64,000 bases of DNA from Candidatus Saccharimonadota bacterium (lineage in GTDB: Bacteria; Patescibacteriota; Saccharimonadia; Saccharimonadales; Saccharimonadaceae), in NCBI GenBank assembly GCA_028286285.1, contig JAQBRV010000003.1, forward strand, positions 1-64,000, read 5' to 3'. Of this stretch, positions 56,393 to 64,000 are shown piece by piece. Each line of letters begins with the position of its first letter. Positions within the stretch are counted from its first letter, which is position 1. The notes beneath the pieces were generated by a model. The model was not told the origin of the DNA, did not search any database, and was given only the letters and a program-made list of their open reading frames with translations. Both the position numbers and the translations under genes were made by a program.

Positions 56393-57526
56393 CTATGCCG
56401 TACGGCGACGTGTCTTCTTGTATGCTTTGGTGATGCCGAATCGTCGATCAAACAGATCTCCCAGCCAAAAACCGAGCGTCAAGGCAACTGCAAGAGAGTA
56501 GAGCGGGATAGGTGTTTCGAACCATGATATCCGAAAAAAGCTATCTCTCAGACCCGCAAAGAACGGCTTTGTCTCACCATTGACCCGCACAGTCGTTTGC
56601 ACATAGGCTGTCTTGCCGTCTTTGTCGGTGAGCTTCAAGGTAATAGTATAAAGACCCGGATTGTCATATTGGAATGGCACCGTCTTATACCCATACGAGG
56701 TGAGGCTCAGGAGCGTATTTTCACTCCCATCACCCCAATCAATATTGAGCGCATAAGGTGGTGACCCGCCCCAGGTAATCACACCGAGGGTGTATTGTTT
56801 CTTTGGTTCAAATGATCGGGACATACATACCACCGCAACTCGTGGCACGTCACCACTCCGCGAAATCGTCGGTGCCTGATAGCTGTCACATGTCAGCAGG
56901 ACAGTCGGCAGCACCGGAGACACCAGAGACTCGGTACGGACGTTAACAGCTGCGCTGGTTGCCTGCTTCTCCTTGTCAACGATAGTAACGGTCACCGCAG
57001 GAGTATCGGGACCCGGCTGATTCAGGTCGTCGTAGTTTTTAGCTGTCAGCACATTAACACCGAGAGAAAGCTGCACCTGCAACACAAAAATACCTGCCGA
57101 TGTACAGATGGTTGAGCCGACGATAGAGGCATTACTGGATACGATTACGAACGTTTGAGGAGCGCAGGTACCACTGATCTGAACCGTTGGTTGGTAAGTC
57201 ATAGTGGCGCCATCTGTCGGTGAGGTAATGGTTGCCCCGACCGTTGGAGCAGCGCCCGGTACGACCGCACTGACAGTCACATCTTGGCTGACGGGCGGAG
57301 GAAGTGCTTGGGTGATATCGCGGCTAATATAGATAACCATGCCGACAATTGCCAGTATAAAAGCCAGGGCTAAATGCGATGTGTGGCGAGGATGAACGAT
57401 TTTACCAGTGTGACGATGGTGCACCAAGCGAAACGAACGCAACTTCGAACGACTGACCGCTAATTCGACTTTTTTAGACCGGCTAGGCTTTTTACTTATT
57501 TTTACGCTTTTTTGTTTTGTTGGCAT
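56393..57526 (-). CDS. Membrane-anchored surface protein with PKD-like domain
   Basis: 377 residues: very basic N-terminus (about 1-48), TM (about 50-70), an Ig-like region with ITSPTDGATMTYQPTVQISG (about 100-185), a PKD domain with NIDWGDGSENT and YDNPGLYTITLKLTDKDG (about 255-320), a second TM (about 340-360) and a basic tail. Both ends cytoplasmic, domains outside. Overlaps the upstream DUF916-like gene by 35 nt, so operonic. Probably a structural partner of the adjacent surface proteins. Confidence 0.78.
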   Translation of the reverse strand: MPTKQKSVKISKKPSRSKKVELAVSRSKLRSFRLVHHRHTGKIVHPRHTSHLALAFILAIVGMVIYISRDITQALPPPVSQDVTVSAVVPGAAPTVGATITSPTDGATMTYQPTVQISGTCAPQTFVIVSSNASIVGSTICTSAGIFVLQVQLSLGVNVLTAKNYDDLNQPGPDTPAVTVTIVDKEKQATSAAVNVRTESLVSPVLPTVLLTCDSYQAPTISRSGDVPRVAVVCMSRSFEPKKQYTLGVITWGGSPPYALNIDWGDGSENTLLSLTSYGYKTVPFQYDNPGLYTITLKLTDKDGKTAYVQTTVRVNGETKPFFAGLRDSFFRISWFETPIPLYSLAVALTLGFWLGDLFDRRFGITKAYKKTRRRTA

Positions 57527-58523
57527 TGGTTTGTTTTGCTTTTTTAATGATGTGTCTATTATACACTCTTATCAGACGACGCAGTATGTAGAATAGTGTC
57601 ACCAAAATGGCCGAACCAGCCAGTAATAATTTGTACGGAATAACCCAGAAGCTTATTTGGCCTGTAATCGCCTGTCCGGTCGTGCCGTAGCCGAGCGTCA
57701 GATTGGCACTGTAGCGACCGATCATCCAGTCTTTATGAAGTTCACTCTCAAACCGTCGAATGCTACCCGGTAGCACATTGGCTGCTGGTTCGTTGACAGG
57801 CAGCGACGCAACGAGGCCGCCAAACATATCGCGAACCTCCACTTTACCGACTGGTTTCACATGAACGTTGCCTTCATTTTTTAAGCGCGACACAAACGTC
57901 ATCGGACTGCTCTCAAAAAAACCATGTTGTTTGTTGTTTCTCTCAGCCGTAAACGATGCCAGTGAGAGCTTCTCTTGAATAGCTCCATCTACGCGAATGA
58001 GTACCAGCAGTCCAGTCCGAGCCGTCACTCCGACACCAGTATCAACGAGTTCAGGTGTTTTGCCCGAAAACGTAATGACACCGTAGTGGCCACCCGGTTC
58101 GGCATTGACGGGAATTTGTACCTGGACATCCAGCTGACGCGTCTCTTGGCCGCGAAGCCTAAACTGCTCAAGCGTCGTAATCCAGCCCCTGACGGATGCG
58201 CTGGCGGGCAGATCACTATCAAATAGGACTTGTGGTGAACCCGTTTCATCTTTGGCGCCAAAATCATTAATTGATGAGTCGTAGATAAGGTCACTATTGG
58301 TCACATTAAGGATCTTTAGCTTGAGCGTGTAGGTTTTGCCCTGTTCGGCGTTGAGCTCGACAAGCGCTGGACTAATCTGTAATCCTTCGGCCGCATTGGG
58401 GTCAAAGCTTTCAGCCGACGCGATACTACGGAGTCCGGCCAGACTGACGAGTAGCGCAATTAGTACGCTCACTCCCAGGATGAGTCGCGCTGTAGCTCGT
58501 CTAGAAGTTTGCAGTCGCAACAT
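57492..58523 (-). CDS. DUF916/WxLIP-like surface protein
   Basis: 343 residues: signal segment (about 12-32), an immunoglobulin-like domain starting LQISPALVELNAEQGKTYTLKLKILN, with PVNAEPGGHYGVITFSG and a second domain (FVSRLKNEGNVHVKPVGKVEVRDMFG), then a TM (about 298-320) and a very basic tail. This layout is that of WxL-interacting proteins (DUF916 + DUF3324), which hold surface proteins on the wall. Overlaps both neighbours (23 and 35 nt). Confidence 0.8.
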   Translation of the reverse strand: MLRLQTSRRATARLILGVSVLIALLVSLAGLRSIASAESFDPNAAEGLQISPALVELNAEQGKTYTLKLKILNVTNSDLIYDSSINDFGAKDETGSPQVLFDSDLPASASVRGWITTLEQFRLRGQETRQLDVQVQIPVNAEPGGHYGVITFSGKTPELVDTGVGVTARTGLLVLIRVDGAIQEKLSLASFTAERNNKQHGFFESSPMTFVSRLKNEGNVHVKPVGKVEVRDMFGGLVASLPVNEPAANVLPGSIRRFESELHKDWMIGRYSANLTLGYGTTGQAITGQISFWVIPYKLLLAGSAILVTLFYILRRLIRVYNRHIIKKAKQTNANKTKKRKNK

Positions 58524-59517
58524 AGGTCAAGACAGTCGAGTAATTTCCTGGCGCGGTCACGCCATCGATGTTAGCGATGTAGCTAGTGGTGAAGGTATTG
58601 CTGTTGGTCGGAGCCGTCGCCGAGGCTACGGTATCACCAGTCACGAATTTGAATAGGTTAGCCGTACTATAGGCAGCCGTTGGGACGCCCGATCCAGAAC
58701 CCGAAACTCCCGTACCAACCGCAGGCGTGGTGTTGCTCATCAAATTAATACCAAATTGCTTATTGTTAGTGCTCGACGCTGTTGGCGTCGCCAGCGCAGT
58801 GATGGTATTCGCACCAGACGTTAAGGTGGTTCCAGCTACGGTAATCGAGTAGCCATTGGTGGCGTTGGTTGATGCGGTCATGCTCGACGTACCAGACCCA
58901 GTCGCACTGGTGGTAAGTGATCCAAGTGGAACGGTCGCGGCGGCGAGTGTGAAGGTTAGTGTTTCATCGACACTAGCGGTCACGGTGATTTGACCTGCAG
59001 TTGATGCAGCAACGGTGCCAGTATCGACTGGTGTCGTCCAGGCGGCTGTAGAATACGTCGTCATGCGCAGGAAGAATGTTGAGTTGGTGGCACTTGGGTT
59101 GACGACATTTGAGAAACTCACTGTTTGACTACCTGTTGGAGCAGCCGCATTACCTGATTTGCTGAGCCGTAGTGATCCTGCGGTTGCCGTACTAACTGTC
59201 CAACCCGACGCGTCACCTAAGTTCGTTGGTTGTCCCGTTAAGGTTGAGCTAGCAACTGAGAAACCTGACGGCATAGTACAGGTGCCACTGGCCGTCGTAC
59301 AAGCCATAAATTCGGCTGACTGCAAGACTGTCGCCGATGGAACGGTAAAAGCGAACGAATAAGTAGTGCTTGCACTAGCGACTGAGCTACCGAGCGTAAC
59401 AGAGCGACTAGTGATTTGAGCGGCAGAAGCCACGTTTGGATAATAGACAAAAAGAAGCGCTATGGCTGATATCCCATAGATGGTTCGTTTTAGAAGTGAT
59501 ATTTTTGTTTGTACCAT
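58501..59517 (-). CDS. Secreted Ser/Thr-rich surface protein
   Basis: 338 residues: signal peptide (cleavage near ASA, about 33), then a Ser/Thr/Ala-rich all-beta protein in two parts. The first has a Cys pair (ACTTASGTCT); the second starts TITVTASVDETLTFTLAAATVPLG and ends APGNYSTVLTYVATANF. The ending pattern G-N/D-Y-x(3)-L/I-x-Y-x-A recurs in the gene at 59599, so both carry the same domain. Likely the main displayed product of the operon, anchored by the DUF916-like protein. Confidence 0.75.
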   Translation of the reverse strand: MVQTKISLLKRTIYGISAIALLFVYYPNVASAAQITSRSVTLGSSVASASTTYSFAFTVPSATVLQSAEFMACTTASGTCTMPSGFSVASSTLTGQPTNLGDASGWTVSTATAGSLRLSKSGNAAAPTGSQTVSFSNVVNPSATNSTFFLRMTTYSTAAWTTPVDTGTVAASTAGQITVTASVDETLTFTLAAATVPLGSLTTSATGSGTSSMTASTNATNGYSITVAGTTLTSGANTITALATPTASSTNNKQFGINLMSNTTPAVGTGVSGSGSGVPTAAYSTANLFKFVTGDTVASATAPTNSNTFTTSYIANIDGVTAPGNYSTVLTYVATANF

Positions 59518-59598
59518 GTAACCTTTTATGTAACCCTTCTGAATCTCTGCCCGTATAGAGATGAACTGGTGGTATTCTCATGTTATAATACCATAAGC

Positions 59599-60144
59599 GT
59601 GAAAAAAACAATATATCCTCTCAGCCTTCTGCTTGTATTCATTCAAGGAATGATTCTCATCCCTGTCAGCCATGCCCAACCCTACGGTAAGGGTCTCTAC
59701 AGTGAAAATGTACCCTACGGTAGCGAAACCGCTCTCTCTATTGCAACGAGTGGCAACGTCAGTATCCCCATCACCCCCACCACGAGCGGCGTCCTCGCAA
59801 CAGGTACGAGTATCGTAACCGTCACCTCGACCGATGTGAAAGGCTATAAGCTGTACATCCGCACCTTGAGTAGTACTGATATGAACAATCTAGGGGCGTT
59901 AATTCCAGCGTCGAGTAACGGCTCGCCAGCCGCACTCTCCACGAATACATGGGGCTACAATACCAACGCATCAAGTAATTTCGTTGGTTTGACTATGGCC
60001 GACACGCTCATCCATTCGATTACGGCACCGGTGTCTGGTGGTGATGCGACAACCGTCACCTACGGGGTGAAGGTTGATCTTGCAAAACCGGCTGGCAATT
60101 ACACGGCAAACATTGTCTACACGGCCGTTCCTCAAACTGACTAG
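59599..60144 (+). CDS. Secreted protein sharing the C-terminal domain of the 58501-59517 product
   Basis: 181 residues from a GTG at 59599, 9 nt behind TATAAT (59584-59589); a longer frame would start before the promoter. Signal peptide (about 1-25, HAQ). Body: ETALSIATSGNVSIPITPTTSGVLATG...KGYKLYIRTLSS, ending PAGNYTANIVYTAVPQTD. Single gene in opposite direction to the two surface operons around it; its end overlaps the convergent gene by 4 nt. Confidence 0.72.
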   Translation: MKKTIYPLSLLLVFIQGMILIPVSHAQPYGKGLYSENVPYGSETALSIATSGNVSIPITPTTSGVLATGTSIVTVTSTDVKGYKLYIRTLSSTDMNNLGALIPASSNGSPAALSTNTWGYNTNASSNFVGLTMADTLIHSITAPVSGGDATTVTYGVKVDLAKPAGNYTANIVYTAVPQTD

Positions 60145-61037
60145 TGTTTGCGTCGTCTCCGAAGTAGGAGTAGACCCACAGCCAATACTATGATAGCGAT
60201 GACAGCGAGAGCCGCCGGCGGCATATATAGCACAAAGCGTGTTTCGGCTTTTGTCGGCGTATCGCCGAGTCCAATTGTGTAGACGACTTTGTAAAGACCT
60301 GGCCACGCTAGTACCGGCAACGTGTCGGATACTGCCCGCACGGTGCCTGGTAATATCAGGGCATCACCTGATGTTTTAGCGACAATGCCATCACCGAATA
60401 GGTGCTGGATGCGAACCTCATACCGACTCTGGAAATGAGTCGTGCCACTGTTCCGAATGGCCATACTCCACTGACTCTGACCACTGACGAACCACGGCGC
60501 TGCCAGCGACACCACACGACCCACTCGCGATACATCACCAAGCACCGTCAGATATATGAGCGAGGCAACTCTTTGTCGCGAGTTGATGCCGTCATTCTCA
60601 GTTCCCGTGTCGGTACTGGCGAATAAACTAATATAGCGGCCGCCGGGCTCGGTAGTAAGTGGCACCCCAATCGTAGCTGTCACATTCTTACGCTCTCCCG
60701 GCGCCAGACTCACTTCTTCGGACGCAAACCATACCCACTTCGCAAGATCTGACTCTGAGCTAAAGGCATAGTCATACTGTTGATTAATTACTCGAAATGC
60801 CTCAGCACTCAAACGAACGACCATCGGTTTGTCGGTTGAGTTCGTGACTCTCAATAAAGTCTCGTGAGAGGTGCCGGGCGCAATACCCAATTCGGTGCGA
60901 AGCGGTGAAAACGTCAAACCTTTTGATGATGTGGCAGCTGTTGTCGCCAAAACCTGCAGGGGAAACGTTAGTGAGGTCAATAAAAGTATCCCCAATAACA
61001 CCGTATGCCGCCAAGACGAGAGGCTATGCCTTCTCAT
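60141..61037 (-). CDS. DUF916/WxLIP-like surface protein (second copy)
   Basis: 298 residues: signal peptide (about 10-32), Ig-like domain LTFSPLRTELGIAPGTSHETLLRVTN, TTEPGGRYISLFAS, a second domain with WSMAIRNSGTTHFQSRYEVRIQHLFG, TM (about 272-292) and RRRRKH tail. Same architecture as the 57492-58523 product. Last gene of the operon 63876-60141, so it may anchor the tail-fibre-like proteins to the cell surface. Confidence 0.78.
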   Translation of the reverse strand: MRRHSLSSWRHTVLLGILLLTSLTFPLQVLATTAATSSKGLTFSPLRTELGIAPGTSHETLLRVTNSTDKPMVVRLSAEAFRVINQQYDYAFSSESDLAKWVWFASEEVSLAPGERKNVTATIGVPLTTEPGGRYISLFASTDTGTENDGINSRQRVASLIYLTVLGDVSRVGRVVSLAAPWFVSGQSQWSMAIRNSGTTHFQSRYEVRIQHLFGDGIVAKTSGDALILPGTVRAVSDTLPVLAWPGLYKVVYTIGLGDTPTKAETRFVLYMPPAALAVIAIIVLAVGLLLLRRRRKH

Positions 61038-61045
61038 GAATCATG

Positions 61046-61549
61046 CTAGCTTTGTGTTACGGTTGTTTGGTAAACAATGCTGACTGCAGATGATTTTGCA
61101 AATGGCCCAATAACAACACGATTGAACATAGTACTCGTACCATTAGTGTTGCCGTTAAATAGCCCGGCTTCATTCCAGCTAAAGTTTGCCACACCTGTCC
61201 CGAATGTAGAAGTAATCGTCACAACCTGACCCGAACGAGCTGTACCGGCATCAGCAGTTTGTATAAGAACAGTTCCCGAAACCGATGGATTGAGCTGCGT
61301 TTGTCCAATAGCGGCAGCTGTTGAATCAGTCCCAACGCCCACGCTGGTAATGGCGACTGCAGAGGCAAGTCCAAATAAACGGTCGAGGGTTAAGTTCTTC
61401 CCATTCGTGACGATCATATTCTTATAAACTGGTGACTTGTATACCTTTTTGTTGACGATCTTGCCGCTTGCATCACGTTTAATATCACCTTGGTAGGCAG
61501 TAAACTGATGTAGACCGATCATATTTCCCGTATTTTCTGTGGTATTCAT
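61046..61549 (-). CDS. Phage structural-like protein
   Basis: 167 residues from the ATG at 61549 (GGAGGAATAG upstream). KNMIVTNGKNLTLDRLFGL and GVANFSWNEAGLFN...TMFNRVVIGPFAKSS resemble minor structural proteins of tailed phages (the WNEAGLF-type element), fairly small and beta-rich. No signal peptide, although the downstream operon partner has one. Eight nt before the DUF916-like gene. Confidence 0.6.
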   Translation of the reverse strand: MNTTENTGNMIGLHQFTAYQGDIKRDASGKIVNKKVYKSPVYKNMIVTNGKNLTLDRLFGLASAVAITSVGVGTDSTAAAIGQTQLNPSVSGTVLIQTADAGTARSGQVVTITSTFGTGVANFSWNEAGLFNGNTNGTSTMFNRVVIGPFAKSSAVSIVYQTTVTQS

Positions 61550-61577
61550 ACTATTCCTCCATTCTATCATAATTATT

Positions 61578-62606
61578 TTACGATGTGGTATAGGTAATTC
61601 TCACCTCACCTCTTGCGCCTCCAGCTCCAGGTGAAGCAGACAATACACCAGAGCCACCACCACCACCACCACCGCCAAGCGCGACGCCAGGTAGTCCAGC
61701 TGTTGGACTACCGCCACCACCGGCGCCACCGGCGCCACCACTGGCGACACCGCCGGTACCACCGACCGCACCCGACCCGGCGCCACCAATGTTGGCGTCA
61801 CCGGCGCCACCACCACCACCACCACCAACAGAAAAGGCTCCGACGCCGGCGGCGCCACCTGTGAATGTAGTTGTACCAATCGTCGTATTCGCCGATCCAC
61901 CGCCCTTTGCCCGAATGGTCGTGGCAGTATTGAACCAACTATCGTTACCGACAGCCGCAGCCGCTGAAGCCGCCCCCACCGTGACCGTATAGCTGGTTGA
62001 CGGGGTGACACTGAGCGTGGAGCGGGCATAGGCACCGCCAATACCACCATTACCACCAAGCCCCAATGTGACGCCAACGGCACCTCCCTGTCCACCGCCC
62101 CAACACTCCACCGTAACCGAAGTGACACCAGCTGGTGCCGTCCAGCTACCTGTGGCGATAAATATCACTTCCGCGGTTGAGGCTGAAGTTTGGACAGGGT
62201 TTGTTTCGGTCGCGAAGTAATTCACAACGCTGTTACTTGTTTCGGTTTGGAGAGGGTTTGTCTCTGAGGAGCCAATACTTGCGCTCAGTGAGGTCGCTTC
62301 GGTTTGGACGGGATTTGTCTCCGCCGCTTGGTAGGTCACTGCGACACTGTTTGTTTCGGTTTGGAGGGGGTTTGTCTCCCCAGTGCCAAGCAATCTGAAT
62401 GAGTGAGCTTCTGCCTGGACGGGATTTGTCTCACTCGCAAAGTAACTAAGAGCGATCAGATAGATTTCAGTTGGCGTTGGATTTGTCTCACTCGAACTGA
62501 TACTAGCGCTCATGGAGCCAACAGAATCAAATATTTCTAGTGAGGTCGATCCACCATGTGCTCCCCCTACCCCTGTGCTGCCGCCACCGAGTACCCGATA
62601 GCCCAT
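61578..62606 (-). CDS. Tail-fibre-like protein with ETNP repeats and glycine-rich C-terminus
   Basis: 342 residues. Residues about 40-155 hold six tandem 18-19-residue repeats starting ETNP(V/L)QTE. Next is a GSWTAPAGVTSVTVECWGGG-type glycine-rich domain known from phage tail fibres and bacterial adhesins. The last 130 residues are dominated by poly-Gly/Ala/Ser with VRITYTTS at the end. No signal peptide. The same repeat gives strong DNA repeats at 62190-62480. Confidence 0.72.
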   Translation of the reverse strand: MGYRVLGGGSTGVGGAHGGSTSLEIFDSVGSMSASISSSETNPTPTEIYLIALSYFASETNPVQAEAHSFRLLGTGETNPLQTETNSVAVTYQAAETNPVQTEATSLSASIGSSETNPLQTETSNSVVNYFATETNPVQTSASTAEVIFIATGSWTAPAGVTSVTVECWGGGQGGAVGVTLGLGGNGGIGGAYARSTLSVTPSTSYTVTVGAASAAAAVGNDSWFNTATTIRAKGGGSANTTIGTTTFTGGAAGVGAFSVGGGGGGGAGDANIGGAGSGAVGGTGGVASGGAGGAGGGGSPTAGLPGVALGGGGGGGGSGVLSASPGAGGARGEVRITYTTS

Positions 62607-62608
62607 AG

Positions 62609-62905
62609 CTAACTCACATACTCAATAAAATACGCCACAATGCCCGCTGAGAAAACAATTGTCGGGTCGGTCAAGTTACCAACTGGGCGAATCTCAATTG
62701 AGGACGAAACTTTATCAGTCGAATTGTATGGCAGGCTGACCGAGTCTCCACCGTTGATCGTAAACGAACCAGCCGCACCCTGTGCCATAGCAGTTATTTG
62801 CAAGACTCGCTTGCTACCGGTCAGCGTTACGGTGCCGTTGACACCCGAAGCGTAGCCCCATGCGCCAGTGACATTATTTATATCGAAGCGTTCAAAGTAC
62901 GCCAT
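62609..62905 (-). CDS. Small beta-rich protein of the tail-fibre-like operon
   Basis: 98 residues without signal peptide; alternating polar/hydrophobic strands (NGTVTLTGSKRVLQITAMAQ, GSFTINGGDSVSLPYNSTDKVSSSIEI) suggest an all-beta fold. Its start codon shares a base with the stop of the preceding gene and its end is 2 nt from the next, so it belongs to the operon. Function unknown; cap or adaptor of a fibre is possible. Confidence 0.62.
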   Translation of the reverse strand: MAYFERFDINNVTGAWGYASGVNGTVTLTGSKRVLQITAMAQGAAGSFTINGGDSVSLPYNSTDKVSSSIEIRPVGNLTDPTIVFSAGIVAYFIEYVS

Positions 62906-63615
62906 TATGCAATCCTCCAGTTGGCGTTATCACTTATTAAGTCTACGCTGGAGTTGGTAAACTGCAAAACGAGCGGTGATGCCTGGCCATCGATGGTCTG
63001 ACTGCTGGTCGTGGCGATGCTCACTGCACCTGAGCCGGCGTTTTTAACCGTATAGAGGTTGGTATTACCGACAGCGGTCGGAAGAGTGAGCGTTGTCGCG
63101 GTGGTGACCTTATATATGTAGTCAGTGAGCGTTGCTGCCCCGGCTGTGGTTGGCGTTGATATTGCACTCACCGAGCGAGTAATACCCCCGGGCGCAGGCG
63201 GTGCCCACGATGGCAAGCCACCCGCAATCGTGAGAACTTGATCGGTCGAACCAGCAGCCAGGCGCACAAAATTTCCACTGGCATCACGATAGTACGTGTC
63301 GCCAGTTGCGCCGGCGCTGTCGTTGTAGGTAGCAATGACTTTACGGGTCGGACCAGACGTCTGGGTAAGATATAGCTTGTCAGTAAGAAATTCAACTGCC
63401 CCTGCTTCGGGCATTGTGGTCAGCGGACCAGATGTAAACTTCAAAGGCGCGGTACCCGACGCTGTGGTTCCGGGTCGAATAGTGATGGTTTGATGACCGC
63501 CATTGGCTGGATCGTCCAGCCCAGTGTCGTAATGCTCTTTGGTTAAGTACTGGTTAAGGATATCACCCCATTGGCCATCGTCACCATTGACCGCTGGAAG
63601 TCGCTGCTGCACCAT
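62905..63615 (-). CDS. Phage tail-fibre-like protein
   Basis: 236 residues. The N-terminus RLPAVNGDDGQWGDILNQYLTKEHYDTG and the middle GAVEFLTDKLYLTQTSGPTRKVIATY are typical of tail-fibre/receptor-binding proteins and related Patescibacteria proteins. The C-terminal third is a beta repeat (TLTLPTAVGNTNLYTVKNAG...). No signal peptide. Operon partner of the Gly-rich and 98-residue proteins. Confidence 0.7.
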   Translation of the reverse strand: MVQQRLPAVNGDDGQWGDILNQYLTKEHYDTGLDDPANGGHQTITIRPGTTASGTAPLKFTSGPLTTMPEAGAVEFLTDKLYLTQTSGPTRKVIATYNDSAGATGDTYYRDASGNFVRLAAGSTDQVLTIAGGLPSWAPPAPGGITRSVSAISTPTTAGAATLTDYIYKVTTATTLTLPTAVGNTNLYTVKNAGSGAVSIATTSSQTIDGQASPLVLQFTNSSVDLISDNANWRIA

Positions 63616-63618
63616 AAC

Positions 63619-63876
63619 CTAAGCTCCGTACTTTCCGCTGCCGAAGCCTCTGGCTGTGGTCTCCTTTTCCTTGGTAGAGACAATCGTTTGATGCCGTAAA
63701 GATGGTTCAAATAACATGATAATACCTTTCAAGCCAAGTAGACTCAGTAGCACGACACCACTGTATTTCAAGAATTCTTTACGATCCATCTCTTGGTCGC
63801 GTATGTGTTGAAGTGTATTTTTATTTATCACAATTTTTACCCCGCTCCGCCCCCGCGGATACTTATCCATAATCAT
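63619..63876 (-). CDS. Small membrane protein with TAT-like segment heading the tail-fibre-like operon
   Basis: 85 residues (start at 63876, or an ATG two codons later). MDRKEFLKYSGVVLLSLLGLKG (from about residue 30) resembles the start of twin-arginine substrates (RREFLK), but only one Arg is present, so export by TAT is doubtful and it may be a simple TM anchor. Basic N-terminal extension, C-terminal RGFGSGKYGA. Three nt before the tail-fibre gene. Confidence 0.6.
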   Translation of the reverse strand: MIMDKYPRGRSGVKIVINKNTLQHIRDQEMDRKEFLKYSGVVLLSLLGLKGIIMLFEPSLRHQTIVSTKEKETTARGFGSGKYGA

Positions 63877-64000
63877 AAGCTAAAAGGGCGAATAAATCAA
63901 ATACTGGTCACGTATTTATCGAGCGATGACAAACCCCTTGTATTATTGCCTTGTTTTGCTTATATTTAAAGGGACTACTTTAGAGAAAGAGAGAGAATAT
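63877..64000. other. Right-edge intergenic sequence
   Basis: A/T-rich 124 nt upstream of the leftward operon; no gene start seen. A purine-rich stretch AGAGAAAGAGAGAGAA at the very end could be the ribosome site of a rightward gene beyond the window. Confidence 0.4.

Follow-up and report, generated by a model that had tools for sequence, protein, structure and literature searches.

What is a set of phage tail-fibre-like genes doing in a bacterial chromosome, beside a gene for a surface anchor and without the rest of a phage? The question is raised by an operon of six genes (orf1 to orf6, positions 60141-63876, minus strand) near the right edge of a 64,000-nucleotide stretch of DNA, the window, from a very small epibiotic organism, a Candidatus Saccharimonadota bacterium of the family Saccharimonadaceae (GenBank assembly GCA_028286285.1). 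Contig C3 (JAQBRV010000003.1; 72,294 bases), of which the window forms the left part, belongs to a genome of 774 kb that is 98% complete. Recognition and holding of host cells by Patescibacteria are largely open, type IV pili apart, and research on host contact has centred on these pili (PMC12206443). Here we describe what is probably a chromosomal surface-fibre system assembled from parts of phage tail fibres and linked to twin-arginine translocation (Tat), whose fibres would be carried by small proteins called RRs and displayed on anchors bearing a shared YG motif. A narrower version, to which we give slightly less than an even chance, is that a single small carrier family exports many folded phage-derived fibres by means of a common tag, and that a Sec-exported anchor with the YG motif then takes them over.

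The first-pass annotation of the window had described six tightly spaced genes, and six minus-strand open reading frames are indeed present, with gaps of 3, -1, 2, 7 and 8 nucleotides in order of transcription. The operon is real, and it is not a prophage. What had been missed is that it faces tatAC, that the family of orf1 is tied to TatC, and that orf2 carries a tag marking a large family of fibres without signal peptides, found alongside the orf1 family throughout the phylum. The tat genes escaped notice because tatA begins at 63,999, just before the window edge. Both are divergent from the operon, on the plus strand: tatA at 63999-64178 of contig C3, with its first 2 bases (63999..64000) inside the window, and tatC to the right of the window at 64206-65240.

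The first gene, orf1 (63619..63876), had been read as a TAT-like membrane protein, and it does combine a Tat-type signal (MDRKEFLK) with a single helix. A GTG codon at 63831, preceded by GGAG, is its likely start and gives a small protein of 70 amino acids, for which we propose the role of Tat carrier. Translational coupling of orf1 and orf2 is likely, because only 3 nucleotides, in frame, separate the stop of orf1 from the start of orf2 and a GGAG lies over the end of orf1. Members of the RRs family, to which orf1 belongs, are about 50-85 amino acids long. A short n-region with [DTS]-R-[RK]-x-F-[LI] opens the protein, a single hydrophobic helix and a linker follow, and the motif [YF]G-xxx-[YF]G, GFGSGKYGA in orf1, closes it at the C-terminus. 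This ending is kept in distant Patescibacteria (GYGGSGYGV, GYGGSSYGV). The family is covered by the NCBIfam model NF038009 "TatB_1" (twin-arginine translocation system-associated protein), which orf1 matches at 3e-9 and 36.9 bits, under the cut-off of 100, and a close relative (in genome G057) at 139.5 bits, over it. No Tat signal in the genome exceeds the cut-off of TIGR01409, a weak negative, since that model misses orf1 too.

The second gene, orf2 (62905..63615, minus strand), begins with a tag of 30 amino acids, here called NGD, with consensus RLPxxxxDxGxWGxxLNxxL. It occupies residues 3-32 (63520..63609, minus strand), is the top match of profile A1 in the genome (E 4e-19) and is followed by a beta-rich body resembling phage fibres or connectors; there is no signal peptide. 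The same tag stands at the extreme N-terminus of many proteins, about 100-1,260 amino acids long. A first alignment of NGD was too diverse, and the scan of the genome collection used a narrower one. Among 142 distinct tagged proteins, 128 have a methionine at the tag or at most 12 amino acids before it, and only 4 have a transmembrane-like segment. Tagged proteins lack signal peptides and have fibre- or tailspike-like bodies, in which beta-helix/pectate-lyase, phage tail repeat, BppL_N, GDSL and CBM domains occur. A fibre character of orf2 itself is predicted with above-chance support from a structural model of moderate quality (predicted local distance difference test, pLDDT, 63). Its best matches among solved structures, reaching no more than E 1e-3 to 1e-1, are mostly phage baseplate and fibre connectors such as T4 gp9 and gp10. 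Better matches come from predicted folds of viral proteins, 173 of them at E<=0.001.

The tag is also found in tailed phages, namely in four IMG/VR contigs and in phages of Streptomyces, among them BRock and GiJojo. In these two (L208, L209) the tagged proteins, collagen-like or hypothetical, lie within a large tRNA cluster and not in an obvious tail module. NGD is therefore not a domain of Patescibacteria only, being present in phages, Gordonia, Microbacterium and Solirubrobacteraceae. The genome studied here has a second tagged protein (482 amino acids, C1 210667-212609), and 72 nucleotides upstream of its gene lies a gene for a protein with a Sec signal, the YG motif and a transmembrane segment. 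A strict pairing of tag classes with classes of RRs tails was considered and dropped, as this genome has both tag classes and a single RRs.

RRs, tag and TatC occur together to a high degree, in statistics that ignore the relatedness of the genomes. Among 101 relatives, TatC is present in 37, RRs in 38 and the tag in 38: RRs was found in all 37 relatives with TatC versus 1 of 64 without it, and the tag in 36 of 37 versus 2 of 64. In 287 genomes from across the phylum, RRs and the tag mark an identical set of 14, all among the 24 that have TatC; the other ten lack both. The exceptions are genomes G024, G045, G069 and G088 and records L143, L174, L188, L196 and L198. The order tatC-RRs-tag is often contiguous. 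Among 59 distinct RRs genes, taken from loci fetched for TatC or tag matches, 35 come after tatC, 26 stand at most 400 nucleotides ahead of a tagged gene on the same strand, and 47 do one or the other. TatC open frames are long (about 300-400 amino acids) in most genomes with RRs and about 240-270 amino acids in TatC-bearing genomes without it. In one record labelled "Chloroflexi" PMG_070 (L175, L177, L203), RRs has a contig number and coordinates identical to those in G039, a genome of the same family as the one studied here, and the title of the record is probably wrong.

The family name and these positions raise the alternative that RRs serves the translocase as a TatB-like or accessory subunit, and that tagged proteins merely need a working Tat system or follow it in the genome. 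Besides the TatB_1 model, this agrees with the usual single copy of RRs adjoining tatC, in loci that hold TatA and TatC. We nevertheless regard it as unlikely, though it fares best among the alternatives. RRs shows a Tat-signal motif and, by inspection, no TatB features; orf1 has no match to the TatB model TIGR01410, which the neighbouring TatA alone matches, weakly. RRs is moreover missing from the ten TatC-bearing genomes just mentioned, and additional copies stand directly before tagged genes in G100, G302, G008, G013 and G023.

The tail motif of RRs is seen again in surface proteins encoded nearby, directly behind their Sec signal peptide. One of them is the product of orf7 (59509..60144, plus strand; likely start 59569), a Sec-exported surface protein whose predicted mature N-terminus is PYGKGLYSENVPYG. 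Searching for [YF][GSN]x[GS]x[YF][GSN] directly after a Sec-like signal, a pattern picked after examples had been seen, gave 19 proteins, at least one of them noise-like, in the 0.97 Mb that lie no more than 2 kb from a tatC, RRs or tag gene. Further off (1.03 Mb) there were 3 noise-like matches and members of the orf7 family, and a looser scan gave mostly noise. Orthologues of orf7 (E<1e-70) are present in the ten genomes with strong matches to orf2, where they carry the motif, and in G024. The surface partner is probably orf7 together with orf6 (60141..61037, minus strand), relatives of which adjoin orf7 in other genomes. The earlier description of orf6 as a DUF916-like membrane protein with a signal peptide holds for the signal peptide and for the membrane, to which a C-terminal anchor would attach it. 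Its likeness to DUF916 is weak (Pfam PF06030, WxLIP_PGBD/DUF916; 2e-4, 21.7 bits), under the gathering score of 27.3; orf6 is slightly above the cut-off of the LPXTG_anchor model.

The joint occurrence of RRs, TatC and an N-terminal tag points to an export of folded phage-type fibres from the cell and to their display on its surface. In the mechanism that we propose, RRs (orf1) would be a Tat-targeted signal-anchor protein that binds, in the cytoplasm, the NGD tag of orf2 and of the second tagged protein of the genome, with the YG tail as the likely binding site. The folded fibre would then be co-translocated through TatAC by hitchhiking. Outside the cell a surface protein exported by Sec, which bears the YG motif as well, would hold the tag or take it over. 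Here that protein would be orf7, together with orf6 and its membrane anchor; elsewhere it would be a small anchor of transmembrane or LPxTG-like type. The displayed fibre would probably serve contact with the host cell. The first-pass annotation had likewise proposed a domesticated apparatus of host recognition or contact; phage-type fibre genes without a phage do stand beside genes for surface anchors, and recognition of or contact with the host is inferred.

Hitchhiker export through Tat is established for PaoABC (PMC4273604). As in that case and in HybO/HybC, a signal-bearing partner is encoded next to signal-less partners that must exit the cytoplasm; by sequence, the orf1 family has the Tat motif and the 142 tagged proteins have their tag at the N-terminus. 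Known hitchhikers differ in being enzyme subunits with fixed partners, whereas here one small carrier family would serve, through one common tag, many fibre cargos. Tat in Saccharibacteria, along with a few genes with Tat motifs, has been mentioned earlier (PMC6031116; PMC9166423), and our literature search found no published link between fibres and either Tat or the RRs/TatB_1 family. NF038009 describes the same family as orf1, adjoining tatC, but its name says "associated" only and holds neither the link to tagged fibres nor the YG tail. If the proposal is true, Patescibacteria have a large repertoire of adhesins with a named exporter, Tat has a purpose in reduced genomes, an NCBI family so far only "Tat-associated" gains a role, and phage fibres have been rerouted into an export pathway of the cell. 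With the tag, such proteins can be found in any genome.

Several observations weigh against the export of tagged fibres by RRs. The tag occurs without RRs in G045, G088, Gordonia, Solirubrobacteraceae, one Levyibacteriota and one Nanosynbacter metagenome-assembled genome, and G024 has RRs and orf7 but no tag. An AlphaFold2 monomer model of an RRs-tag read-through shows no visible docking (pLDDT 60). Tat may be strained by fibres that are large, elongated and perhaps trimeric, and part of the association could be a by-product of correlated gene loss in reduced genomes. In Gordonia (L143, L198) and Solirubrobacteraceae (L174) the tagged proteins are fibre-like, and these genomes have no match to RRs. 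In favour of such export, Microbacterium sp. MYb62 (L184:5475-6288) has RRs, an LPPNTGF protein with the YG motif and a tagged reading frame in a row, on a contig of 62-64% GC; this locus either reached an actinobacterium by horizontal transfer or is contamination of the assembly. Actinobacteria are the phylum of the known hosts of Saccharibacteria.

The shared YG motif would also fit a role of RRs as a mere outer tether inserted by Tat. The fibres would then leave the cell otherwise, by lysis or through an unknown exporter, and YG motifs would catch them on the outside; the motif is common to RRs and the Sec-exported anchors, all of them outward-facing. This is a little less likely than a TatB-like function. 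The neighbourhood contains neither another exporter nor a lysis gene, and a short tail would make Tat needless; that a short unfolded RRs tail alone would presumably hardly need Tat also speaks for folded fibres exported by Tat and carried by RRs. Less probable again is shared ecology, in which larger, less reduced genomes retain Tat, RRs and fibres independently and the association reflects parallel loss. Relatives without TatC do tend to be smaller, and relatedness was left aside in the counts; against this stand the same 14 genomes for RRs and tag phylum-wide, the contiguity of the genes and the genomes that have TatC but neither RRs nor the tag.

The middle of the operon is of phage type to differing degrees. 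By sequence, orf4 and orf5 are clearly so. The first, orf4 (61578..62606, minus strand), is the tail-fibre-like protein with ETNP repeats and a glycine-rich part already recognised as such (Gly_rich_2 3e-11, phrog_863 8.5e-14); a search of named phages (tblastn) gave no match to it. As for orf5 (61046..61570, minus strand), its annotation as phage minor-structural-like is strengthened by phrog_5417 (1e-20) and by 71% and 63% identity to proteins that tailed-phage contigs L205 and L206 encode close to terminase or portal genes. L206 also encodes a DSN-PTD repeat protein that by eye resembles the ETNP repeats. Relatives of both orf4 and orf5 are found inside tailed-phage structural modules; neither L205 nor L206 has a match to NGD. 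The small protein orf3 (62609..62905, minus strand) appears weakly fibre-like (PHROG 12321 tail fibre, 0.0015) and has no relative in the fetched loci. That the operon is a remnant prophage or tailocin is, despite the phage-type orf2 to orf5, very improbable, as RRs, orf2, orf6 and orf7 are conserved across ten or so genera and no capsid, terminase, sheath, tube or lysis gene lies near the fibres as far as position 72,294, where the contig ends, which bears out the earlier remark on a fibre set without other phage genes.

Phage tail fibres and tailspikes with N-terminal attachment domains share the tag, in tailed phages, and the body domains with the proteins described here, which differ in lacking virion genes and in being chromosomal and tied to tatAC and surface anchors. 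The pairing of the DUF916/WxLIP-like anchor orf6 with the beta-domain surface protein orf7 is like that in WxL/WxLIP (DUF916) complexes of Firmicutes, from which it differs by the sub-threshold Pfam match of orf6 and in that no WxL motif is shown here.

Left of the operon, orf7 is followed by genes of the Pam pilus of the candidate phyla radiation (CPR; NF058578, NF058579, NF058581), all on the minus strand (56393..59517): a PamR-like gene (56393-57526; 185 bits, under the cut-off of 300), a DUF916-like gene (57492-58523) and the Pam pilin (58501-59517; 157 bits to NF058581, over the cut-off of 55). The product of orf7 is weakly similar to the pilin domain (20 bits, under the same cut-off). 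Pam pilin adjoins orf6/orf7 in G067, G036 and G074 as well, and a PamR-like gene, under the curated cut-off, does so in G008, G013 and G036. The Pam genes could belong to the same appendage, in which the fibres could sit at the tip or on the sides of the pilus; neither RRs nor the tag nor the fibres count among the Pam components, and many tagged loci have no Pam genes nearby. To the right, where a complete prophage was looked for, there are no phage genes, and the contig holds only tatA, tatC, lepA, murJ, ftsH and tilS (the last four named from sequence) and one truncated gene, at 71598-72293 of contig C3, for a further secreted repeat-type surface protein broken by the contig end.
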